A stretch of 17,640 nt of DNA. Source: Candidatus Poseidoniaceae archaeon. GTDB taxonomy: Archaea; Thermoplasmatota; Poseidoniia; Poseidoniales; Poseidoniaceae. Below, in pieces: positions 2,486 through 16,797 of the stretch (its first letter is position 1; each line of letters starts with the position of its first letter). Location: the NCBI GenBank assembly GCA_022425185.1, contig JAKMFY010000163.1, positions 1 to 17,640 on the forward strand, read 5' to 3'. Both the position numbers and the translations under genes were made by a program. The notes under the pieces were generated by a model. That model did no database searches. It was not told where the DNA came from and worked only from the letters and a program-made list of their open reading frames with translations.

Positions 2486-3133
2486 TCAGCTGCCCTCCAC
2501 GATAAGTCGGTAAGCAACGGCTGTACCGGCAGATTTGGAATGTCTCTTTACTTTCAGAACACGGTCTGCAATCCAACCGGCTGCGAGTGGGCGGTGTTCA
2601 GGATTTGCTGCAAGTGTTGCATTGTCGAGGAGTTCACAAGCCTCTTTGATGGCTTGAACGACAGGATCTGAAATCAAAACTTTCGGAAGAAGTTCCTTTG
2701 CGAGGCGTGGTTTTCCGTCTTCATCGAGTTCTTCGAGACCCCAAGGAAGAAGTTCTTCTTTCTCCAGGTCGTATTGTTCTTGTTCGCTGATGTTCGCCTC
2801 GCCGAGAAGTTCCTGATGAGGGACCAGTTCGTGGTTTAAGGGGTTGAAACGACTGGTTGCCTCAGGACGATCGAACTCGTCAATGGCTTTGGATGAAATA
2901 GTAATTTTTTTGCTTCGCTTGTTGCGAGAACGTCGGTTCCCTTGCTCGGCAATAATTTGCATAACTTTGGTGAAGGATTCGCTGTCTTTTGCGATTCCGA
3001 GAATCTTTGCGACGTCATCAGCAGGCATGGCCTTAATGTCAGCCATGTTTCTGTCCGTAGCCAATTTGTGGGCGAATTCATCGGAGACTCCGAGTTCAAT
3101 TAACCGCTTTTTTGTTGCGCTCTTTACTACCAT
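2486..3133 (-). CDS. rpoH: RNA polymerase subunit H (Rpb5 C-terminal-like) with a long N-terminal extension
   Basis: RpoH is the archaeal counterpart of the Rpb5 C-terminal domain and belongs to the polymerase jaw. The core begins near residue 100 (HELVPHQELL), continues with LLPKVLISDPVVQAI (148-162), and ends with VKRHSKSAGTAVAYRLIVEG (195-214), all typical of RpoH. The protein is 215 residues, whereas RpoH is usually about 80. About 95 extra residues precede the core; residues 15-47 look like a helix-hairpin-helix unit, followed by a basic stretch (NRRSRNKRSKK, 66-76). Two insertions also expand the core, an acidic one near 118-146 and another near 165-190. I chose the ATG at 3133. An in-frame TTG at 3142 would add three residues, but the TATA-like box about 30 bases upstream of the ATG favours the ATG. 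It lies upstream of rpoB, as in other archaea. Confidence 0.92.
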   Translation of the reverse strand: MVVKSATKKRLIELGVSDEFAHKLATDRNMADIKAMPADDVAKILGIAKDSESFTKVMQIIAEQGNRRSRNKRSKKITISSKAIDEFDRPEATSRFNPLNHELVPHQELLGEANISEQEQYDLEKEELLPWGLEELDEDGKPRLAKELLPKVLISDPVVQAIKEACELLDNATLAANPEHRPLAAGWIADRVLKVKRHSKSAGTAVAYRLIVEGS

Positions 3134-3158
3134 CCTAATCAACCCCTCTTCGCCCCAA

Positions 3159-3380: not shown

Positions 3381-4799
3381 ATGTTTGACGAAAAGAAAAC
3401 ATTTCGAGAAATCGAATTGTTAGGAGGTGAATCAAGGGAAATTTTGTGGAAAGATTTCTCCTTGACCATACCCCCTACTGTATATCCACCTCGAGAGGAT
3501 ACGGAACTCATCGCAAGTGTTCTTGAAAAAGTCACCCCATTCGGTAAAAAACGCTTGCTTGAAATCGGAAGCGGATCTGGGGCTTTATCGATCCTTGCAG
3601 CATCTTTGGGTTGGGATGTGGAAGCATGCGACATCAACCCGTTTGCAGTTGCAGCAACCCGATATAATGCCATTGAAAACACCTTCCATATTGCATCGGC
3701 TGAAGGAGGCATTGGTCCGGCCAAGGATGGATTCCATTCCCAATGGATGAAGCCTGGAACTTACGATTTAGTGATGTGGAACATGCCTTACATTCCTAGC
3801 GAAGAAATTGAAGAGTATCTTGGGCCAATGGAGGACGCTGCATTAGTCGACACACATCCATCGGGATTGCTGAACGAATTTGCGGAAATGACAAGACGCT
3901 TTCAACTCATTTCCCCAACAGGAATTGCCCTTATCTTGTGTAGAGAATACATAGGATTGCATCGCTCGAAGGATGTACTCCTTTCAAGAGGACTAGCAAC
4001 ACAAAGCGTTTCAAAACGTACATTTGATGATGATGAAACCATCCAAGTATTAGCCGTATGGCATCCTTTCTTGAAATCTAAAAAACAGCAGATGCATTCA
4101 ATCCCATCGACAAACTCTGAAATGTTGGAGGGCAACTACAAACCAGGCGATTCACTGCGAGCAAGATTCCAAACCGATGGAAAGGGGCGTCATGGCCGAA
4201 CCTGGGATGACCATCTTGACTCGTTTAAGGGAAGTTGGAAGATCAATTCAGACCAAATACCTCACATTTCGTCCCAGTTACAATGTCAAGTTGCTCTTGA
4301 AATTGCTTCATTGTTGCAATCTATGGCCCCTAAACCGAATGTCATTAGAGTAAAGTGGCCAAATGATCTCCTCATATTGGATAGCGAATCTAAACAATGG
4401 AAAAAAGCAGGAGGAATACTCTTCCAATCTCTCTCAAAAGGTACAGAGCAATTTCTCGTTCTTGGAATAGGCATTAACACGAAGACAACTGCTGAAGTTC
4501 AAGGTCGAGGCTCACTTGAAGAAATAGGAATTGACCTCGACAATACTGAACTTTTCACGCTCCTAGACACTGTTGTATCTTCTCTATTTGAAAACAAATC
4601 AAACCTAATGAATGCCTCAGACAAAACCACTGACATCAATCTGAAACTATTGCTTCGGCAATGTATCTATAGAAATGAGAAATGTACTGTAAAAGGAATT
4701 TCTAGTGAAGGATATCTTCAAATTGAATCACAACGAGGAGAGTCTTACAACATCTCAGACGATCTTAGTCTTCTTTGGCCTCATCTTCAAGTTCAATAA
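3381..4799 (+). CDS. Fusion protein: HemK/PrmC-type methyltransferase + biotin-protein ligase (BirA catalytic domain)
   Basis: Two enzymes are joined in one 472-residue frame. Residues 1-230 are a class I SAM-dependent methyltransferase of the HemK/PrmC/Mtq2 type. It has the N-terminal PPTVYPPREDTEL (31-43), motif I LLEIGSGSGALSI (59-71), DINPFAV (84-90) and the signature tetrapeptide NMPY (134-137, usually NPPY). Such enzymes normally methylate the glutamine of the GGQ motif in peptide-chain release factors. Residues 238-472 form a complete biotin ligase catalytic domain with STN (243-245), GKGRHGRTW (267-275), VKWPNDLL (324-331), KAGGILFQS (342-350) and GIGIN (362-366). No DNA-binding domain is seen, so it should biotinylate carboxylase carrier proteins without acting as a repressor. 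The 3' end overlaps a convergent gene by 35 bases. The domain calls are secure; whether the fused protein has a joint function is unknown. Confidence 0.88.
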   Translation: MFDEKKTFREIELLGGESREILWKDFSLTIPPTVYPPREDTELIASVLEKVTPFGKKRLLEIGSGSGALSILAASLGWDVEACDINPFAVAATRYNAIENTFHIASAEGGIGPAKDGFHSQWMKPGTYDLVMWNMPYIPSEEIEEYLGPMEDAALVDTHPSGLLNEFAEMTRRFQLISPTGIALILCREYIGLHRSKDVLLSRGLATQSVSKRTFDDDETIQVLAVWHPFLKSKKQQMHSIPSTNSEMLEGNYKPGDSLRARFQTDGKGRHGRTWDDHLDSFKGSWKINSDQIPHISSQLQCQVALEIASLLQSMAPKPNVIRVKWPNDLLILDSESKQWKKAGGILFQSLSKGTEQFLVLGIGINTKTTAEVQGRGSLEEIGIDLDNTELFTLLDTVVSSLFENKSNLMNASDKTTDINLKLLLRQCIYRNEKCTVKGISSEGYLQIESQRGESYNISDDLSLLWPHLQVQ

Positions 4800-8450: not shown

Positions 8451-9275
8451 ATGCTAACAACCTCATTCACCAAGCGCCGGCCTATCGTCGTCGCAGTGTT
8501 GCTCTTGCTCCTTCTACCAGGGCTTGCCACGTCCCTGCCTACAGGTATCGGCGGACAACAACAAAACGGAGCAGATACAATAGACGATGTTGCCAAAGAA
8601 GGCTGCCTTTGCCACAACGGAGTCCCTGCTAACGAAGTTCAAGTCATTCTAGATGGCGTTCCTTATGCTTGGACCGCAGGAGAAACCTACGAACTGAATC
8701 TTCACATCATTGGAGGTCCAGACGCAGGAGGCCAATACTCTGCAGGATTCGCAATGCGAGTCTCAAGCGGCATCCTCTCAGGAATCGGTGCAGACAACTG
8801 GCAAGATGACGAACAATCCCTCACCCATACTTCTGCCTCTGCTGCTGAATCCGATCGAATGTGGGAAATCTCTTGGGTTGCACCTGCTGAAGGCGAAGGA
8901 ACGATTGTGTTCTGGATTACTGGAAACAGCGTCAACGGTGACGGAGGCCTCGGAAACCAAATTGAAGACATGTGGAATCAACTCACCTTTGCCATTTTAG
9001 AAGGCGACGAAGAGAGTTTAGCACGTGGAACAAGGACTGTTTTCGCAGGCGATGGAAACGTCAGCCCGCCTGAACCGACATCTCTTGGAACTGACCTCCA
9101 TCACATGGGAGCCAAACTTCGTGCCCACTGGCTGGGATTACTGGGCTTCGGAGCTGTCATCATGTGCATCATTTTTGCTGGACTCATGCTCCGCTACGGC
9201 TTCTCTACTTCTTACGAAGGTCGAAGTAACCAACTTCGATTACGATACAAACTCATGCGAAGAGGTGATCAGTAA
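8451..9275 (+). CDS. Membrane-anchored extracytoplasmic protein with CLCH motif, choice-of-anchor V/Reelin-like domain
   Basis: This is the first gene of the cytochrome b/Rieske operon. The 274-residue protein has a signal peptide (KRRPIVVAVLLLLLLPGLA, about 8-26), then the motif GCLCHNG (51-57). A beta-rich domain of about 130 residues follows, containing HTSAS (126-130), ISWVAPAEGEG and FWITGNSVNGDGG, which resembles Reelin-like/choice-of-anchor V domains that often carry an N-terminal CxxCH. A membrane helix (about 226-247) and a short basic cytoplasmic tail complete it. CLCH has only one residue between the cysteines, so classical c-type haem attachment is uncertain. By position it could stand in for cytochrome c1/f as the extracytoplasmic acceptor or as a docking subunit, but that is inference. 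Its stop overlaps the next start by one base. Confidence 0.78.
   Translation: MLTTSFTKRRPIVVAVLLLLLLPGLATSLPTGIGGQQQNGADTIDDVAKEGCLCHNGVPANEVQVILDGVPYAWTAGETYELNLHIIGGPDAGGQYSAGFAMRVSSGILSGIGADNWQDDEQSLTHTSASAAESDRMWEISWVAPAEGEGTIVFWITGNSVNGDGGLGNQIEDMWNQLTFAILEGDEESLARGTRTVFAGDGNVSPPEPTSLGTDLHHMGAKLRAHWLGLLGFGAVIMCIIFAGLMLRYGFSTSYEGRSNQLRLRYKLMRRGDQ
9262..9269 (+). promoter_or_regulatory. Shine-Dalgarno site for the gene at 9275
   Basis: GAGGTGAT lies inside the end of the preceding gene, five bases before the ATG at 9275. It is fully complementary to the archaeal 16S rRNA 3' end (AUCACCUC), which confirms this start and supports coupled translation of the one-base-overlapping genes. Confidence 0.75.
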
Positions 9276-9721
9276 TGTACGATGACACAATAAACAGTCT
9301 ACTGAAAGGTGTTGCAGACGGTTCCATATCAATCAAAGACGCACGTACTGCCCTCGAAGGGGTTGAGTTAACTGAAGAGCAAATGGATGCTGCCATTGAC
9401 CATGGTGTTCACAACGTCGCTGAGTCAGGTACAATCGTTAGCGCCTCCCTTGCCCCATCTGGGGCATCTTACCTCACTATGTTCTTCTTCGTTTGGGGAA
9501 TCTTCTGGATCTGCTACTGGTCCTTTTCCCTCATTTACGGACTAGCCAACGATTGGGATCAGCAAAACATGGCATTCCATCTCGCCATGGTCCTAACAAC
9601 CCTCATACTTCTGGGACTCGTTTATCTAAAATTCATCATACCAGACACCATCATTGTAAAACATTCACAGAACAAATATGTTCCTGAACACCAGAAAGAC
9701 TGGAAGGAGTACAAGTGGTGA
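9275..9721 (+). CDS. Two-helix membrane subunit of the cytochrome b/Rieske operon, unknown family
   Basis: I do not recognise this 148-residue protein. Residues 1-50 are soluble and acidic, with two short helices resembling a SHOCT-like or helical adaptor segment (INSLLKGVADGSISIKDART). Two membrane helices follow at about 64-90 (aromatic-rich: FFFVWGIFWICYWSFSLIYG) and 100-122, separated by a short hydrophilic turn. The tail is charged and ends in KDWKEYKW. No haem or Fe-S motif is present. It lies between the CLCH protein and the Rieske protein with overlapping ends, so it is probably a structural or assembly subunit of the complex, perhaps equivalent in role to small b6f/bc1 subunits. That role rests only on its position. 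Confidence 0.82.
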   Translation: MYDDTINSLLKGVADGSISIKDARTALEGVELTEEQMDAAIDHGVHNVAESGTIVSASLAPSGASYLTMFFFVWGIFWICYWSFSLIYGLANDWDQQNMAFHLAMVLTTLILLGLVYLKFIIPDTIIVKHSQNKYVPEHQKDWKEYKW

Positions 9722-9726
9722 GTTCT

Positions 9727-10569
9727 ATGGCAAAGGATTACGATTTAGTCATACCAGAATCGAAGGCTGGTGCACACACAGCTGCGAGTAACGTCATCAA
9801 CCGACGCCAATTCTTGCGCTATGGATTTAATACAGCCGCTGGGGTTCTAACGGCATCATTGGGTGTTCTTGGATTCGCATCCATTCTCCTACCACCTGGC
9901 GGAGGCACTGCAGGTGACCTATCGGTCAAATTCTGGGCCAAGGGTCGAGAGGATACTGCTTGGTATGGTGCAAAGCACCTACAAACAATGACGAAGTCTG
10001 ACTTTGCCGCAGAAGCAGCAAAGACCAACACTGGAACTTCTGGCGCATCTGGCGTGTGGAATGGCGTCCCTGTTGTCGTCACCTATGTTGAAAGTTCAAA
10101 GTGGGAAGGAACACCTGAAGACAACAATAAAGCCCGATTTATGATGATGGAAGGTTACGATGAAAGCGGGAAATACGTAGGTCACTTCGAAGATATGGTT
10201 GCTCAAGATGAGCGAATATATCCTTCTGATGATCTCATCATGGTCTTTGGAAGATGCACTCACCTCTGTTGCATACCTGGATGGCAACTCGTATCGAACC
10301 AATACACAGATGATTCATGGACTCCGGGCGGCACTGACGACGGAGGAACCAAACTTTTCTGTATCTGTCACTCTTCTCGATTCGATACAACTGCACTTGA
10401 AATGAATACGAACAGAAATCGTTCAAACGGTTCAACATTCAAGTATGCTGGCGTTCGAAAAGCAGGAGGTCCTGCCCCTGTTGGACTTCCGCTTATTCCG
10501 ATTGTTCTAAACAATGATGTCGTCGAGGGCATTACCGATTATGTCGATTGGCTGACATACTGTGACTGA
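9727..10569 (+). CDS. Rieske [2Fe-2S] protein of a cytochrome b complex
   Basis: The Rieske subunit takes electrons from quinol at the Qo site and passes them to an extracytoplasmic acceptor. The 280-residue form starts with a hydrophilic segment, a twin-arginine motif NRRQFLRYGF (25-34) and a membrane helix (about 36-55), so it is probably Tat-exported and stays anchored. Cluster box 1 is CTHLCC (177-182) and box 2 is CICHSSRFD (212-220). C177, H179, C212 and H215 are the expected cluster ligands, and C182 with C214 the structural disulfide. Both boxes deviate from the bc1 consensus (CTHLGC, CPCHGS). Start choice is uncertain. ATG 9727 follows a GGTGA at 9717-9721, but in-frame GTGs at 9715 and 9718 follow an AAGGAG at 9704-9709 and would overlap the previous gene. 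Confidence 0.93.
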   Translation: MAKDYDLVIPESKAGAHTAASNVINRRQFLRYGFNTAAGVLTASLGVLGFASILLPPGGGTAGDLSVKFWAKGREDTAWYGAKHLQTMTKSDFAAEAAKTNTGTSGASGVWNGVPVVVTYVESSKWEGTPEDNNKARFMMMEGYDESGKYVGHFEDMVAQDERIYPSDDLIMVFGRCTHLCCIPGWQLVSNQYTDDSWTPGGTDDGGTKLFCICHSSRFDTTALEMNTNRNRSNGSTFKYAGVRKAGGPAPVGLPLIPIVLNNDVVEGITDYVDWLTYCD

Positions 10570-10575
10570 GGTGAA
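10569..10575 (+). promoter_or_regulatory. Shine-Dalgarno site deciding the cytochrome b start
   Basis: GAGGTGA ends four bases before the ATG at 10580. An in-frame GTG at 10562 lies upstream of this site and inside the Rieske gene and has no comparable site of its own. The ATG at 10580 is therefore the better start. Confidence 0.72.
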
Positions 10576-10579
10576 TAAT

Positions 10580-11446
10580 ATGACCACAATGTTCTGGATT
10601 CTTTGGTTCTTTATTGCCTTCATTATCGTCCTGGTGGCCTTCACTCTCCGTAAAGAGACCGAAGAAATGCCGCGTCGTGAAATTCTACGTGCTGTAGAAT
10701 CAACTGGAGGAATGGGTGTCTCTGAACGGGCCTTTTTGTGGGTCTTTTCTTGGATGGATACTCGATTCCGTATTCAAGACTACTGGAACATGTCGAAGGG
10801 CGCATACTACAACATGCACCGACAAATGCCGCTCACACACGCTGAAAAATACAAACTTCGAATCATATGGTATTGGTATCCACTCTACTGTCTTGGTGGA
10901 ATCTCCTTCCTAAGTTTCATTGTCCTTGTCATCACAGGAACCGTCCTTGGAATCTACTATGTCCCAGGTGGCGAAGGCGATCCATCACCTGCGTATGCCT
11001 CCATGGAATTCATCATGCTCGAGCTTCCTTTCGGTTACATCATCAGAGCGGTTCACCACTGGACGACGCACTTCATGGTGGCATCTGTATTCTTACACAT
11101 GTGTCGTGTTTACTTCACAGGGGCATACCGAAACCCTCGCGAGTTGAACTGGTTGATTGGTGTAGCCCTCATGGCTCTCACAATCGTCTTTGGATACTCT
11201 GGTTATCTCCTTCCATGGGACAGTCTGGCATACGGTGCTGCTGTCATTGGAATTAACCTAGCGAATTCATCTCCATTGATTGGGAAATATATCGCAACTC
11301 TTCTGTTTGGAGGGTCTTCATTGACACCTCGGACCGTAACACGTATGTATTTCATACACGTCTTTATTCTACCAGTGATAGTGACTACATTGATCATTAT
11401 TCACTTGTTTATTGTCTGGGTACAAGGCATTGCGGAGCCGCATTGA
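10580..11446 (+). CDS. petB: Cytochrome b6-type subunit (N-terminal, haem-bearing half of cytochrome b) with haem c-n cysteine
   Basis: This 288-residue protein holds the quinone-site haems of a Rieske/cytochrome b complex. An extra N-terminal helix (5-22) precedes a cytoplasmic segment and the four-helix b6 core. Helix B carries H159 and H173 (RAVHHWTTHFMVASVFLHMCR region; spacing 14) and helix D carries H260 and H275 (spacing 15). The 15-residue spacing in helix D is the b6 pattern; bc1 has 14. LYCLGGISF (102-110) matches FYCLGGITL of chloroplast b6, whose cysteine covalently binds haem c-n, so C104 probably does the same. TGAYRNPRELNW (180-191) and SGYLLPWD (207-214) are further b6-like stretches. 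The protein ends after helix D, as in split b6/subunit IV systems; the second half is in the next gene. The symbol is given by homology to petB. Confidence 0.93.
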   Translation: MTTMFWILWFFIAFIIVLVAFTLRKETEEMPRREILRAVESTGGMGVSERAFLWVFSWMDTRFRIQDYWNMSKGAYYNMHRQMPLTHAEKYKLRIIWYWYPLYCLGGISFLSFIVLVITGTVLGIYYVPGGEGDPSPAYASMEFIMLELPFGYIIRAVHHWTTHFMVASVFLHMCRVYFTGAYRNPRELNWLIGVALMALTIVFGYSGYLLPWDSLAYGAAVIGINLANSSPLIGKYIATLLFGGSSLTPRTVTRMYFIHVFILPVIVTTLIIIHLFIVWVQGIAEPH

Positions 11447-11461
11447 TACGGGGGAATCTGA

Positions 11462-14278
11462 ATGGGATTAATGGAAAATTTTGGAAGAGTCGCTACATCC
11501 TACATGGATGAGAAAGCAAAACTCGAAGAAGCTGGTGAAAAGCGAACACGTACGCGAATGGGGCATGGATTCTGGCCTCATGAAGTCCTGCGTGATACGA
11601 TTCTCTTTTCGTTCATGGCTGCAGTTCTCCTGTTCTATGCGTGGTTAATTCCACCACCACTCCACGGTGCTGCAGATCCATACGCTCAAGCGGGGTTCGT
11701 TTTCCCGGATTGGTATGTTCTGTTCTCCTATGGATACCTACGTTGGGGAGAATATCTCCCACAATTTACGGTCCCTACAGGATTCATTGGCGATATCGTT
11801 GGCCAGCCTGTATTCGCATGGAACGCTGCTTGGTGGGGTGCTGCCCTAACAGGAATCCCAATCGGTATCCTTACTCTTCCACCGCTAATCGGAGGACGTG
11901 AAAAGAGACCTGTCGAAGACCCATGGTTTGCCGCTGCGGGAGCAGTTTATCTAGCACACATTTGGTTCATCTCCGTTTTCTCGATCAACATCTTCCTCGA
12001 ATTATACGGGAAAAATAGGTCGGATTATTGTAAACTCGATTCGCATGGAGATTTGCTATGTGGTACGAGAGCACCTTGGATGGCAGATATTTTCAATGCA
12101 GTCCCGTGGATTCTGACGGGTTTACTGTTGTGGATTGTTATTTACTTCATGGCCAGAAACATAATGGTCAAAGCCTGGGGATCTGGATTTACTCCTGCTC
12201 ATGGAAAGCGACTCATCATTGGTGCACTGGTTATCTCCGCAGGAGCATCCGTTGCAACATTCGATACATACGACAACGGTTTCTGGGAAGCTGGAGGTCT
12301 TTTGACGATCAAAGGGCTAACGCACGATTATTATCCTGAACTCGAAGCAATGCGGACACAACCATCCGATGTACACGTACACGAATCAAATGAGTTTACC
12401 GATGACCGGGGATACTCAGATGATGGTATTGTACCAGCCGCTGCATGGACTGAATGGCAAATTTATCAGCCTGCACGAGAAGTCATTATCGATTTCAGTG
12501 ATGCAAATAATCACCAAGATGCCGAAGAAGGCCTCAACGCAGCTGGAACAACAACATCCTTCTACGGCGGAGAAGGTTACATCACCAGTGGAACATTTAC
12601 TGTTACGGAGGACGTGAATAACTTCCCAGATGGCCACCATGAATCAGTCGAAGCACTTACGACAGATGTTGTCTGCGAATACCGATCGAGTGAGCGTAAA
12701 ATCGATGGAGTCAACACTGCAACAATGCTCACCAGTTCACTCACAGTCTCAGACGCAAATGGAAAGGTCATAACCTCATTCTCCGATTGTGTTGGTGACG
12801 AAATCACTCTTGAACCAGGTGTGTACAACTATGAATACAGCCTGCTAGCATCAGGACCTCTTGCTCAGAACAACTCAATCATGACAGAGACAACCTTCTC
12901 GATTCGTGCATATCAGCCACTTCTCCTATGGGACAGCAATGCAGGCCCACTTGCTGGAACTGTTGTCAATCTCAGCGATACAGCCACAATTGCTGCATCC
13001 GCAGGAACATACAGTGATGTTGTCAATCCATCATACCACGTTAACCCAAAGGCCCTTGACGCAAAACTCACCTATGCAATGTTTATTCCATGTTTGACAT
13101 TTGGTGCAATCGTAGTTGTTGTATTGAGATCAATGGCACGAGGATATGAATTCGAAATGAACAAGTGTTACGGCTGCGATTTGTGTGACGACGCTTGTCC
13201 TGTTCGATTATTCAACGGTGGTGACAAACTCAACATCATTTACAATTCATGGAACAATGAAGACGACGGTGTACCAATGTACTCCTGTCTGACGTGTACT
13301 GCCTGTACAAATGCATGTCCTCAACTTGTCAATTACGATTCTTATGTGGACATTCGCCGAAGCCTCATCGTAGGCGGCCCAGCGGCTGAAATCCCTCACA
13401 CAGTGTTGCAAGCAGTCTTAGCTGCAGAAGCCGAGGAAGCATCAAACGAGGATTTCATCCCAGTGGAAGAGTACCCAATATCATCCAACGTAGGATATTA
13501 TCCTGGATGTGTCGACTATCTCGACCAAGAGATGGTCTTCTCTCACGTCAATGAAGGAGATATGAATCTTGGAGATTCAACAACTGCTGCATTCACTCTC
13601 TTCGAAGAAATGGGCCATGATGTATCCTACCTCGGCCGTGATTTCCTGAAGTGCTGTGGTCACGACCAAAAGTGGCAAGGACTTACCGAAGTATTTGACA
13701 AGCTCAAAGCCTACAACCAAAAGAAGATTGAAGCATCAGGCATCGACACATTAGTCTCTTCTTGTGCTGAATGTTTCCGTACCTTTGCTCGAGATTACGA
13801 ACTTGAAGGTGTCAAGGTTATGCACACAACAGAGTATCTCATCGAAAGTGGATTCGATATGGAACTCTCAACTGATGCTACAACGGTTACGTATCACGAC
13901 CCATGTCGACTCGGTCGCCAGATGGGAATCTATGATGAACCTCGTGAATTGATCAACGCTGTAGAAGGTGTTGACCTCGTTGAAATGGAGCACAGTGGAG
14001 AAGACGCAATGTGCTGTGGCGTTTCCAGTATGATGTCATGCAACGAGAATGCACGTGCTCTGCGTGTATCTCGTATGGAAGAAATCAAATCCACTGGTGC
14101 AGACACCATGCTCACCTCTTGCCCGAAGTGTGTTTCACACTTTGAGTGCTTGAAGTTTGAAGGTGATGAGCGATACGAAGACATCGAAATTCTCGATGTT
14201 GTTTCTTTCCTTGCTCGAGAAGTCAATGCAAAGAAGAACGAATTGACTCAACCTTCACTTGGTGAAGTTGAAGCTTGA
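11462..14278 (+). CDS. Fusion protein: cytochrome b C-terminal half (subunit IV-like) + extracytoplasmic domain + HdrD/GlpC-like Fe-S/CCG module
   Basis: This 938-residue protein joins parts normally found in separate enzymes. Residues 40-235 form a subunit IV-like membrane part with helices at about 45-66, 121-142, 154-183 and 211-233. The Qo-site motif is PDWY (82-85; usually PEWY). A fifth helix (250-268) leads to a beta-rich domain of about 265 residues containing C405 and C443. Helix six (about 536-556) returns the chain to the cytoplasm. There follow two [4Fe-4S] motifs, C569/572/575/579 and C609/612/615/619, and two complete CCG domains (C683, C731-C732, C768, C771 and C815, C851-C852, C887, C890), as in HdrD, GlpC and LutA. 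With the N-terminus inside, helix counting puts PDWY outside and the Fe-S module inside. The module may exchange electrons with the n-side haems; its partner substrate is unknown. The start ATG is 15 bases after the cytochrome b stop. Confidence 0.92.
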   Translation: MGLMENFGRVATSYMDEKAKLEEAGEKRTRTRMGHGFWPHEVLRDTILFSFMAAVLLFYAWLIPPPLHGAADPYAQAGFVFPDWYVLFSYGYLRWGEYLPQFTVPTGFIGDIVGQPVFAWNAAWWGAALTGIPIGILTLPPLIGGREKRPVEDPWFAAAGAVYLAHIWFISVFSINIFLELYGKNRSDYCKLDSHGDLLCGTRAPWMADIFNAVPWILTGLLLWIVIYFMARNIMVKAWGSGFTPAHGKRLIIGALVISAGASVATFDTYDNGFWEAGGLLTIKGLTHDYYPELEAMRTQPSDVHVHESNEFTDDRGYSDDGIVPAAAWTEWQIYQPAREVIIDFSDANNHQDAEEGLNAAGTTTSFYGGEGYITSGTFTVTEDVNNFPDGHHESVEALTTDVVCEYRSSERKIDGVNTATMLTSSLTVSDANGKVITSFSDCVGDEITLEPGVYNYEYSLLASGPLAQNNSIMTETTFSIRAYQPLLLWDSNAGPLAGTVVNLSDTATIAASAGTYSDVVNPSYHVNPKALDAKLTYAMFIPCLTFGAIVVVVLRSMARGYEFEMNKCYGCDLCDDACPVRLFNGGDKLNIIYNSWNNEDDGVPMYSCLTCTACTNACPQLVNYDSYVDIRRSLIVGGPAAEIPHTVLQAVLAAEAEEASNEDFIPVEEYPISSNVGYYPGCVDYLDQEMVFSHVNEGDMNLGDSTTAAFTLFEEMGHDVSYLGRDFLKCCGHDQKWQGLTEVFDKLKAYNQKKIEASGIDTLVSSCAECFRTFARDYELEGVKVMHTTEYLIESGFDMELSTDATTVTYHDPCRLGRQMGIYDEPRELINAVEGVDLVEMEHSGEDAMCCGVSSMMSCNENARALRVSRMEEIKSTGADTMLTSCPKCVSHFECLKFEGDERYEDIEILDVVSFLAREVNAKKNELTQPSLGEVEA

Positions 14279-14283
14279 ACCGT

Positions 14284-14574
14284 TCAATCTTCAGTTGGAG
14301 GAGTTCCTTCCTCATCCATACCTACGATTTCGTAGTTTGATGGGAATAATGCGATAATGACTCCAGCGATGAGACTGAGCAATCCCCACATGAATTCTTG
14401 TTGAACGAAGAGCAGTTCAAGAGCGATAACACAGAGGACGAGCCCTCCGATATTTGAGGTCCAAACAAGCGTCTTGAACGTACCAAGCGATACACCTGTT
14501 GTACCATCTTTTCGATATGGTCCAAACTCTCCACCAAAACGTTGTGCTGACGGTTCTTTTCCTTTCTTTGACAT
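14284..14574 (-). CDS. Small two-helix membrane protein, unknown function
   Basis: This 96-residue protein has a basic, glycine-rich N-terminus (MSKKGKEPSAQRFGGEFGPY), membrane helices at about 37-57 and 62-77, and an acidic tail (MDEEGTPPTED). I do not recognise a family. The ATG is preceded by GAGGA seven bases upstream and lies ten bases after the ferredoxin stop, so it is probably translated from the same message. Its stop is five bases from the stop of the convergent Hdr-fusion gene. Position suggests a membrane partner for the ferredoxin or the membrane gene upstream, but the sequence offers no direct evidence. Confidence 0.78.
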   Translation of the reverse strand: MSKKGKEPSAQRFGGEFGPYRKDGTTGVSLGTFKTLVWTSNIGGLVLCVIALELLFVQQEFMWGLLSLIAGVIIALFPSNYEIVGMDEEGTPPTED

Positions 14575-14584
14575 CGTACATTCC

Positions 14585-14917
14585 TCATCGGTCGATCATG
14601 CTGATTGCATCTGTTGGACAAGCGAGAACACATAGCCTGCATCCAGTGCAAGCGTCTCTAATGATTTTCGCTTTTTGATTGCTTTCAACTTTGAGCAAGG
14701 CGCTCCTCATGGCCACCTTATACATTTCAATGGCATCATCATCACAAACGATTGTGCATTGATCACAACCGATACACAATGATTCTTGAACAAAAGCAAC
14801 AGCAGTCTCTCCTCCTTTGAGCGACGAATGCTGTACACCTCGCTGACGATTAAGGCTCGAACGAATACGCTTCGCCTCTTCTTCGCGACGACGCTTGAGG
14901 TCATCCGAGGACGTCAT
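14585..14917 (-). CDS. 2x[4Fe-4S] ferredoxin with charged N-terminal extension
   Basis: This is a bacterial-type dicluster ferredoxin of 110 residues, a cytoplasmic low-potential electron carrier. Cluster motif 1 is C48-IG-C51-DQ-C54-TIV-C58 and motif 2 is C90-TG-C93-RL-C96-VLA-C100-P. The last cysteine of motif 1 is followed by Asp, not the usual Pro. The motifs are separated by 31 residues, longer than in clostridial ferredoxins. The first 46 residues are a strongly charged, probably helical extension (DDLKRRREEEAKRIRSSLNR) without cofactor motifs. The ATG at 14917 lies 17 bases inside the upstream membrane-protein gene and follows AGGTGG, which suggests translational coupling. It could be the soluble donor or acceptor of the convergent Hdr-like complex, but that is inferred from proximity only. 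Confidence 0.92.
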   Translation of the reverse strand: MTSSDDLKRRREEEAKRIRSSLNRQRGVQHSSLKGGETAVAFVQESLCIGCDQCTIVCDDDAIEMYKVAMRSALLKVESNQKAKIIRDACTGCRLCVLACPTDAISMIDR

Positions 14918-15591: not shown

Positions 15592-16797
15592 TCATGACGC
15601 TTTCATCGCTTCTAATTCAAGTCCCATAGCGAGCATTGAGAGTTCAGCGACCAATGCGTGCCAATTGTGCGCATGCGTCATGTATCCTGGCTCTTGATCA
15701 GAAGTGACGAATTGTGCACTCGGTGAATTGAGATTTCCTATGTCATCTCGTTTTGCATTAAGTCTGTAAAACCAGGATGATGCATCACCATCGACTAGAT
15801 AGACTACAGGTTCGACTGGGAAACCTTCTTGGGTTTTCATAAGAGTGGGAACGCCTTCTTGTATCAAGAAATCTTCAACATCTGTGGTTCCTTTCCCATA
15901 CATGAGTTTCTTCATCTTGCGATTGGAAAGATTGAGGAGTTGCTCTCCCGAGGTCACAGTCATGATTCCTAAGCCATAGGTTCCACGATTGTTTTTGACA
16001 TAGACAACAGGTTCTCTATCAAGGCCAAGAGATTGATATCGCTCTGAAAGAAGAGCGATGAATACATCAACCTCTTCAGCAAGTTTTACTCTGCAGGTTT
16101 CTTTTTCCAAACATTTATTCTCAGAGACAAATGAGTCACAAAGTAAGTGCCATGGTTCGATTCCAATTATTTCGCTTACTTCTTCGACAAGGGGGCGTAA
16201 ATGTTCAAAATGCATAGATTTCTTTCTCTTATGCCATCCCATTTGTGGATTGGGCAATATATGAGGGGACGAAAGCCCCTGTAAACCTTCATCAGTAAGA
16301 TCATTGTTGAGTAAAATAAAGTCCGGTTGTTCTCCATTTACCATAAGAACATCGTCAATAACGCCGACTTGATTCAATGGAAGTGGGCCATGAATTCCAT
16401 TAAGTGATTCAAATCCGTCAAGTTCGGGATTACCGATGGTACATCGATATCCTGCTGATTCAACCAACTTACATAACGTTCGAAGATTCTCAACATATCC
16501 TTGATTTCTCGTATGAGATTCAGGATAGATATGGACCCACTTACAATCAGGGTTATTTCGTTTGATGTGTTCTGAAATGCGATTTGTGAGATGAGGTAAA
16601 TCCGAATCAGAGGTGTTATTGAAGCCTGCAGGGAATTGATTGGCATCGACAACCGCTATTTTCCATCCTGCATCACGGACATCCACGCTTCCGTAAATTG
16701 GGACCTCTATGGATGAACGTTTTTTATTCATCCATTTGGTCAATTCATCACGCTTTTCTTCGAGTCGATTGCTTAAATCATGTAAGAATGTCATCAT
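15592..16797 (-). CDS. gshA: Glutamate-cysteine ligase, GshA family of ATP-grasp-like type (PF08886-like)
   Basis: This 401-residue protein matches the glutamate-cysteine ligase family first defined in Acidithiobacillus-type and other proteobacteria, which forms gamma-glutamylcysteine from Glu, Cys and ATP. The family landmarks are VDVRDAGWKIAVVDANQFP (38-56) followed by AGFNN, the nucleotide/metal segment VYVKNNRGTYGLGIMTV (265-281), LIQEGVPT (311-318), EPVVYLVDG (329-337) and FYRLNAKRDDIGNLNSP (343-359). Length fits the family. The start overlaps the stop of the asparagine-synthetase-like gene as ATGATGA. A Shine-Dalgarno GAGGTGAT at 16805-16798 lies directly before the first ATG and is better spaced for the second ATG at 16794, so the protein may begin one residue later. 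The product would be cytoplasmic. Confidence in the family is high; the in vivo thiol is not known. Confidence 0.85.
   Translation of the reverse strand: MMTFLHDLSNRLEEKRDELTKWMNKKRSSIEVPIYGSVDVRDAGWKIAVVDANQFPAGFNNTSDSDLPHLTNRISEHIKRNNPDCKWVHIYPESHTRNQGYVENLRTLCKLVESAGYRCTIGNPELDGFESLNGIHGPLPLNQVGVIDDVLMVNGEQPDFILLNNDLTDEGLQGLSSPHILPNPQMGWHKRKKSMHFEHLRPLVEEVSEIIGIEPWHLLCDSFVSENKCLEKETCRVKLAEEVDVFIALLSERYQSLGLDREPVVYVKNNRGTYGLGIMTVTSGEQLLNLSNRKMKKLMYGKGTTDVEDFLIQEGVPTLMKTQEGFPVEPVVYLVDGDASSWFYRLNAKRDDIGNLNSPSAQFVTSDQEPGYMTHAHNWHALVAELSMLAMGLELEAMKAS

Follow-up and report, generated by a model that had tools for sequence, protein, structure and literature searches.

To our knowledge, the cytochrome b6f complex has no iron-sulfur (Fe-S) arm fused to its subunit IV. 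In the model of cyclic flow through b6f, electrons from ferredoxin enter on the n-side of the membrane, near haem c(n). The abstract of a 2024 paper describes the molecular entity for ferredoxin-dependent cyclic electron flow as unidentified (PMC10931702). Among archaea, the haloarchaeal genes are described as resembling those of b6f (PMC8305020), and archaeal b6f-like complexes of this petABD type share operon order and homologous subunits with the locus considered here. Likeness in the Fe-S parts is found in the membrane ETF:menaquinone oxidoreductase EtfD/EMO, where a membrane cytochrome b is joined to two cubane clusters and a pair of CCG domains on the cytoplasmic side, and in HdrD/HdrBC and TfrB, which have the same Fe-S and CCG modules. 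Here we describe a gene (positions 11462-14278) on a 17,640-nucleotide stretch from a Candidatus Poseidoniaceae archaeon, one of the uncultured archaea of the ocean (contig JAKMFY010000163.1 of assembly GCA_022425185.1; the whole stretch is hereafter called the window). Its product combines in one chain a b6f-type subunit IV, two [4Fe-4S] motifs and a pair of CCG domains. The fusion is real. The adjacent ferredoxin-like gene, together with the predicted inner-side position of the arm, suggests that reduced ferredoxin could feed electrons directly into the complex.

A subunit IV with a fused Fe-S/CCG arm

Positions 11462-14278 form one uninterrupted frame of 938 aa, with the PDWY motif at residues 82-85. 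In a Pfam search, the protein matched CCG (PF02754) twice (3e-23) and the dicluster domain Fer4_8 (PF13183) at residues 565-621, and the dicluster ferredoxin domain and both CCG domains occupy its C-terminal ~370 residues. Thus, the single frame with PDWY, two [4Fe-4S] motifs and two CCG domains, as read in a preliminary description of this DNA, is confirmed by the frame itself, by Pfam and by the ligand alignment. Of the domain searches proposed there, those with PF02754 and PF13183 succeeded and that with PF00032 gave no match to the window protein. Indeed, PF00032 matched no Poseidoniales or Marine Group III genome, and the 42 matching genomes among the 292 of the phylum sample all belong to other families; it was above cut-off in five of the six module-free relatives put to Pfam, as well as in the fused relatives L093 and L094. 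Because it misses the window protein, a PF00032 search alone would have failed. The identity of the subunit IV part was shown instead by aligning a profile of 42 Poseidoniales sequences with nine stand-alone archaeal subunit IV sequences (hhalign), which gave a match over residues 10-179 with probability 99.8, E 3.7e-30 and 34% identity.

The functional residues are well kept. PDWY is present in all 127 Poseidoniales sequences that cover the motif site and in 8/8 others. The window protein holds all 18 cluster cysteines, eight of the Fer4 and ten of the CCG type, and the only losses among 130 Poseidoniales sequences are one Cys569 and one Cys732. Five cysteines per CCG domain are found in Marine Group II (Cys 732 in 129/130), L093 and L094, whereas six of the eight sequences examined outside Marine Group II lack the full set, with Cys 732 of the first CCG domain (CCG1) gone in four and Cys 771 in two. 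Glu770, within CAE of CCG1, occurs in 138/138 fused or split sequences, as opposed to CPHC in the two EtfD-type proteins compared.

Conservation of the fusion and natural variants

The fusion was surveyed in 60 genomes of the same genus, family and order, mostly drafts, and tallied by hand. Both halves lie within one open frame in 49 of them; they form a single match in 35 genomes and two matches in the other 14, where a frame of 925-988 aa encloses both. A single stop was flagged in eight of the 49; direct reading showed each of these eight frames to be intact, at 922-941 aa. As for the remaining 11, nine contain pieces of the gene, mostly at contig ends, G015 has no match to it, and in G040 the gene is represented by two frames, 353 and 584 aa long, that overlap on a single contig (L155, G040:C26:500-3700), attributable to a frameshift or sequencing error. 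A protein search returned 563 matches at E <= 0.001, with Poseidoniaceae and Thalassarchaeaceae among the taxon names, and 117 of the 120 matches listed are 915-942 aa long. An assembly join or frameshift, foreseen in the preliminary description as the possible undoing of the fusion, is rejected as its source, given the single frame in 49/60 genomes.

The architecture is not unique to Marine Group II. In Marine Group III, subunit IV and the two [4Fe-4S] motifs share one gene, the CCG domains are encoded separately by the next gene, which overlaps it by a few bases, and a ferredoxin protein of 279-336 aa follows. At the Marine Group III locus L023, the N-terminal part of this ferredoxin protein matches the Sulfolobus zinc ferredoxin 1xer (E 3.7e-29), a type described in PMC2946596 as the acceptor of 2-oxoacid:ferredoxin oxidoreductase. 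L093 and L094/L095 are fused and lack the large outer loop, and in L126 the CCG part is a separate gene. Eleven loci (L096 to L104, L127 and L130) have a subunit IV without the arm. Since module-free L130 is from a haloarchaeon, Halospeciosus flavus, the base plan is the haloarchaeal b6f-like complex. L130 differs from the window in its stand-alone subunit IV without Fe-S/CCG arm, in having no ferredoxin gene in the 12.6 kb read, and in the Ala at its haem c(n) position. The phylum contig scan relied on two peptide patterns, and other forms may be missed.

Some loci depart from these forms. In another Thermoplasmata family, a LamG-like domain (L096:7994-9733) follows subunit IV helix 3, near the site of the extra helices and acidic loop of Marine Group II. 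At a module-free locus, a 1182-aa FAD-linked oxidase with CCG and Fer4 domains (L098:9308-12856) is encoded ~3.7 kb past subunit IV; it was not counted as a form of the arm module. A record labelled Chloroflexi bacterium EAC10 (L118) carries a Marine Group III-type operon, and its label or bin is probably wrong.

Gene block and companion ferredoxin

The fused gene belongs to a block whose order, namely anchor-V protein, small membrane protein, Rieske protein, cytochrome b6 and subunit IV with the module, is kept in 20 genomes where the contig permits. Both Rieske boxes (CxHLxC and CxCH) are conserved across the aligned relatives. Neither a flavoprotein gene nor an etf gene is among the conserved block genes compared. 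The anchor-V protein shows GCxCH in 19/19 aligned sequences, and L102 has CTSCH, a CxxCH form; judged by its motif, this protein may bind haem or metal on the outer side.

A ferredoxin gene accompanies the module. It was found in 24/24 genomes asked, at most ~1.2 kb from the module in 21 of them, and occurs with all five CCG-bearing lineages, i.e., Marine Group II, Marine Group III, L093, L094 (where it is cut at the contig end) and L126. No such gene was found in 11 module-free loci, with 7.4-18.5 kb read per locus. It is co-oriented with the complex in 7/7 f2 loci, two f1 loci (L057 and L058) and three Marine Group III loci. In seven further f1 loci, as in the window, it lies on the opposite strand together with the second small membrane protein. 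The latter mostly accompanies the ferredoxin, and among the three Marine Group III loci two have a match to it; at L051, neither was found within the stretch read. These gene associations are drawn from a single phylum and from few lineages, of which several are represented by single loci.

Membrane topology and the haem c(n) position

Topology was assigned by simple helix counting on hydropathy, with the N-terminus taken as cytoplasmic. The window protein has six helices, five preceding the acidic stretch at residues 270-535 and one after it, and the L094 form has four. From these counts and the inside N-terminus, we infer that the Fe-S/CCG part faces the cytoplasm (n-side) in both proteins. 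A stand-alone subunit IV chain stops shortly past its last helix, and the Fe-S part starts at the same point. The cytoplasmic placement made earlier by helix counting is therefore supported for the window protein with its six helices, and a CCG module on the outside is rejected for it on this count; the counts of L093 and L023 are uneven.

In the cytochrome b6 subunit, the haem b histidines align with the b6 positions and are conserved in relatives, as judged by eye. The Cys of YCLGG in b6f cytochrome b6, which we take to be the haem c(n) ligand, has a counterpart in the module-bearing loci read, with the exception of Marine Group III genus g24, and nine of ten readable module-free loci have Ser, Thr or Ala at this position. 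In a cytochrome b6 tree, 22 module-bearing rows and L102 are split from seven module-free rows (100/99); with four more rows the split holds (96/91), and L127 and L102 group with the module-bearing rows. These trees group nearly all Cys-bearing rows and so weaken the haem c(n) Cys as independent support. In the subunit IV tree, the module-bearing rows do not form one clade, and long branches make this tree unsure.

Electron carriers encoded in the genomes

Carriers were surveyed in 18 genomes, with 14 control genomes for ETF-QO and NuoF. The POR domain was found in 16 (15 over cut-off), NuoD in 17 and ETF alpha in 17. NuoF was found in none of the 18 genomes, with 9/14 controls positive, and ETF-QO over cut-off likewise in none, with 3/14 controls positive. 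A separate 681-aa protein in the window's genome matches the EtfD structure 9ojn at 5.9e-99, compared with 3e-21 for the fused protein, and a homologue in Marine Group III genome G060 directly precedes etfB and etfA. Such EtfD-type loci are present in Marine Group II and III (L071:488-2533 and L073:4678-8368), with etf adjacent in L073. On the strength of the 681-aa match and the position of the G060 homologue, ETF has its own EtfD-type outlet. ETF is thus disfavoured as main donor to the arm by this separate protein, by the etf adjacency, and by CAE versus CPHC in CCG1. Because the CCG module is accompanied by a two-cluster ferredoxin gene and ETF is served by another outlet, the partner of the arm is most likely ferredoxin.

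Proposed mechanism and alternatives

We propose, at about even odds, that the products of the block form a Rieske/cytochrome b complex of the b6f-like type whose n-side bears an entry arm from ferredoxin to quinone, in other words a built-in ferredoxin:quinone oxidoreductase. In such a complex, 2-oxoacid:ferredoxin oxidoreductases would reduce ferredoxin, which would donate to the ferredoxin subunit, and electrons would then pass through the CCG clusters and the two cubane clusters to haem c(n)/b(n). Quinone would be reduced at the n-side site, where the arm electrons may join the electron sent through the b haems at each Qo turnover. On its oxidation at Qo, the quinol would then give one electron to the Rieske centre and the oxidase, and these aerobic archaea would gain a route of ferredoxin reoxidation besides a complex I that lacks NuoF. 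Both the path and the direction of the electrons are what we infer from gene and protein sequences. The entry of ferredoxin electrons on the n-side near haem c(n) is what this scheme would share with the ferredoxin:plastoquinone route proposed for b6f.

In EtfD, the solved structure shows a wire that runs from CCG clusters through cubane clusters and haem b to menaquinone (PMC13083937); by analogy, a wire of this kind would here have as its end point the subunit IV of a Rieske/cytochrome b complex. Potentials of -280 and -530 mV are given for Sulfolobus tokodaii ferredoxin (PMC2946596), and therefore the flow would be downhill if the quinone pool is menaquinone-like. More broadly and more tentatively, with the balance tipping slightly against it, a branch of Thermoplasmata may have evolved a hybrid complex III, which takes quinol electrons at Qo and ferredoxin electrons on the n-side through an HdrD-type wire and haem c(n), as a hard-wired ferredoxin:plastoquinone reductase of the kind long proposed for b6f and as the missing ferredoxin reoxidase. 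The earlier idea that a redox partner in the cytoplasm is coupled directly to the quinone site is supported, and ferredoxin is added here as the most likely partner.

Several observations weigh against a ferredoxin entry arm. The ferredoxin gene is ~14 kb off in G033 and G070 and on a different contig in G061, ferredoxin of the Sulfolobus type occurs in 3 Marine Group III genomes and 0/15 Marine Group II genomes (E 1e-6), and L106 (5983-6954) has subunit IV with two [4Fe-4S] motifs, no CCG domain and no ferredoxin in 8.1 kb. Complex I could already accept ferredoxin electrons, and two Marine Group III genomes have weak ETF-QO matches below cut-off; the weak match of G060 falls inside the ferredoxin gene of the complex block. 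The haem c(n) position is occupied by Ser in Marine Group III genus g24 (G061, G062, G064 and G066) and by Cys in module-free L102. The association of module and Cys may moreover reflect one event, because both mark nearly one cytochrome b6 clade. The helix count is not uniform: L093 has seven, three of these in an N-terminal extension, and Marine Group III L023 has three above threshold and a weaker fourth. Lastly, the direction of flow is argued solely from pathway content and energetics.

What else might the arm do? As in EtfD, LutA and GlpC, it could be fed by a different soluble donor, for example ETF or a dehydrogenase of the flavoprotein or 2-hydroxyacid type, with the ferredoxin serving only as an internal relay. 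CCG proteins of this type often relay electrons from flavoproteins (NCBIfam family names; for EtfD, the account in PMC13083937), yet we consider such a donor unlikely here, given that a separate EtfD-type protein matches 9ojn more closely than the fused protein does, that its homologue adjoins etfBA in G060, that CCG1 carries Glu770 in place of CPHC, and that the conserved block genes compared include no flavoprotein gene. It seems very improbable that the arm is structural or regulatory, serving as a docking surface or redox sensor and passing no steady stream of electrons to quinone. Such a role would agree with the lack of a known activity for the arm and of an assigned function for the large acidic outer loop; however, each of the 18 Fe-S cysteines is kept in at least 128/130 Poseidoniales sequences, and the parts remain together across lineages, fused or split.

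Flow could also run outward: low-potential electrons from quinol oxidation at Qo would travel along the b haems and be delivered to ferredoxin or to a disulfide in the cytoplasm, a case of quinone-based bifurcation. The complex has a Qo-type core, the five cysteines per CCG domain in Marine Group II, L093 and L094 are like those of heterodisulfide reductase (Hdr), and a glutamate-cysteine ligase-like gene lies nearby in the window and near the complex in many Marine Group II loci. We nevertheless rate outward flow as quite unlikely. The ligase gene is absent from the three Marine Group III stretches, and delivering electrons to the n-side means moving them against the membrane potential. For bifurcation at Qo towards the cytoplasm, as raised in the preliminary description, there is no positive evidence, and it is not supported. 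A disulfide reaction, also raised there, is disfavoured because a CCG1 ligand is lost in Marine Group III and one further lineage. Both noncubane clusters of Hdr take part in cleavage according to PMC13083937, yet CCG1 is degenerate in six of the eight sequences outside Marine Group II through the loss of Cys 732 or Cys 771.

Relation to described systems and earlier work

The likeness of the fused protein to EtfD/EMO covers residues 605-929 in the 9ojn match. EtfD/EMO differs in its five-helix membrane part with one haem b, as described in PMC13083937, in having no Rieske or Qo site, and in its CCG ligands (Thr and His positions). The fused protein, in turn, has a subunit IV membrane part and Glu770, with no etf adjacent. 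TfrB is its best NCBIfam match, at 112.7 bits against a cut-off of 385; the protein further differs from TfrB and HdrD/HdrBC in its membrane partner and in the degenerate CCG1 seen outside Marine Group II.

According to Tully et al. (PMC6336850), cytochrome b and Rieske genes are present in most Marine Group II members in the absence of a canonical bc1; RnfB occurs in many of them, with the other Rnf subunits missing. The RnfB mentioned there may be of the 14585-14917 gene type. In view of its score of 49.9 bits, below the RnfB cut-off of 68.7, and of the other Rnf subunits reported as missing, this gene was rejected as RnfB of an Rnf complex. A search of the main text of PMC6336850 found none of the words heterodisulfide, fusion and fused, and the main text of Rinke et al. 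(PMC6461757) mentions neither cytochrome nor Rieske. No earlier description of the fusion was found in searches of the open-access PMC literature, PMC9239135 included, in agreement with the initial statement that no characterised bc1 or b6f complex was known to have such a fusion. Database names include Fe-S oxidoreductase and heterodisulfide reductase subunit D, and in Marine Group III Cytochrome b(C-terminal)/b6; parts are therefore already annotated, and the whole would be a Rieske/cytochrome b complex to which an HdrD-type entry arm has been fused.

Two papers describe Marine Group II as globally abundant (PMC6336850, PMC6461757), and the arm-bearing complex appears to be its complex III. 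Ferredoxin reoxidation is presented as an open question for aerobic thermoacidophilic archaea (PMC2946596) and for haloarchaea (PMC8305020). The arm-fused complex and its arm-free relatives make this question, and that of the cyclic-flow entity, testable. If the broader and more tentative reading is true, the complex would be a natural, hard-wired form of the ferredoxin:plastoquinone reductase and the missing ferredoxin reoxidase of these aerobic archaea.

Features of the window

Table 1. Features of the fused gene and its neighbourhood, in window coordinates
Feature	Position	Strand	Evidence
Subunit IV fused to two [4Fe-4S] motifs and two CCG domains, 938 aa	11462..14278	+	Open frame, Pfam, profile match, ligand alignment
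Subunit IV-like domain, aa 10-179 (PDWY codons 11705-11716)	11489..11998	+	Profile-profile match, E 3.7e-30
Acidic loop or domain, aa 270-535, probably on outer side, no known family	12269..13066	+	Hydropathy, charge, no Pfam match there
Sixth helix, aa 536-554, predicted to lead to n-side	13067..13123	+	Hydropathy
Two [4Fe-4S] motifs, aa 565-621	13154..13324	+	PF13183, 3.5e-7; eight Cys conserved
CCG domain 1 ligand span, Cys 683, 731, 732, 768, 771	13508..13774	+	Ligand alignment
CCG domain 2, aa 809-894, Cys 815, 851, 852, 887, 890	13886..14143	+	PF02754; ligand alignment
Choice-of-anchor-V domain protein, conserved GCxCH, C-terminal membrane anchor (by eye), first block gene	8451..9275	+	NF041895, 3.2e-24; synteny; motif alignment
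Small membrane protein, weakly DUF7318-like	9275..9721	+	PF24002, 19.5 bits, below cut-off 27; syntenic in relatives
Rieske-type iron-sulfur protein	9715..10569	+	TIGR01416, 41.1 bits, below cut-off 97.4; CxHLCC and CxCH boxes conserved
Cytochrome b6-type subunit	10562..11446	+	PF00033, 4.5e-42; PDB cytochrome b6 1vf5, 1.2e-43
Cys110 codon of cytochrome b6, aligned with Cys of YCLGG in b6f cytochrome b6	10889..10891	+	Alignment with 1vf5; survey of relatives
Small membrane protein, usual companion of ferredoxin gene	14284..14574	-	Synteny
Two-cluster (RnfB-like) ferredoxin, putative partner or subunit	14585..14917	-	PF14697, 6.5e-14; synteny; 24/24 genomes

Further along the window, the glutamate-cysteine ligase-like protein (15592-16797) scores 273.8 bits with TIGR02049, the cut-off being 293.9. 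Upstream of the block, a single frame at 3381-4799 contains a HemK/PrmC-like methyltransferase half and a biotin-protein ligase half, and a 218-aa protein encoded at 2486-3142 ends in an RNA polymerase subunit H-like domain.

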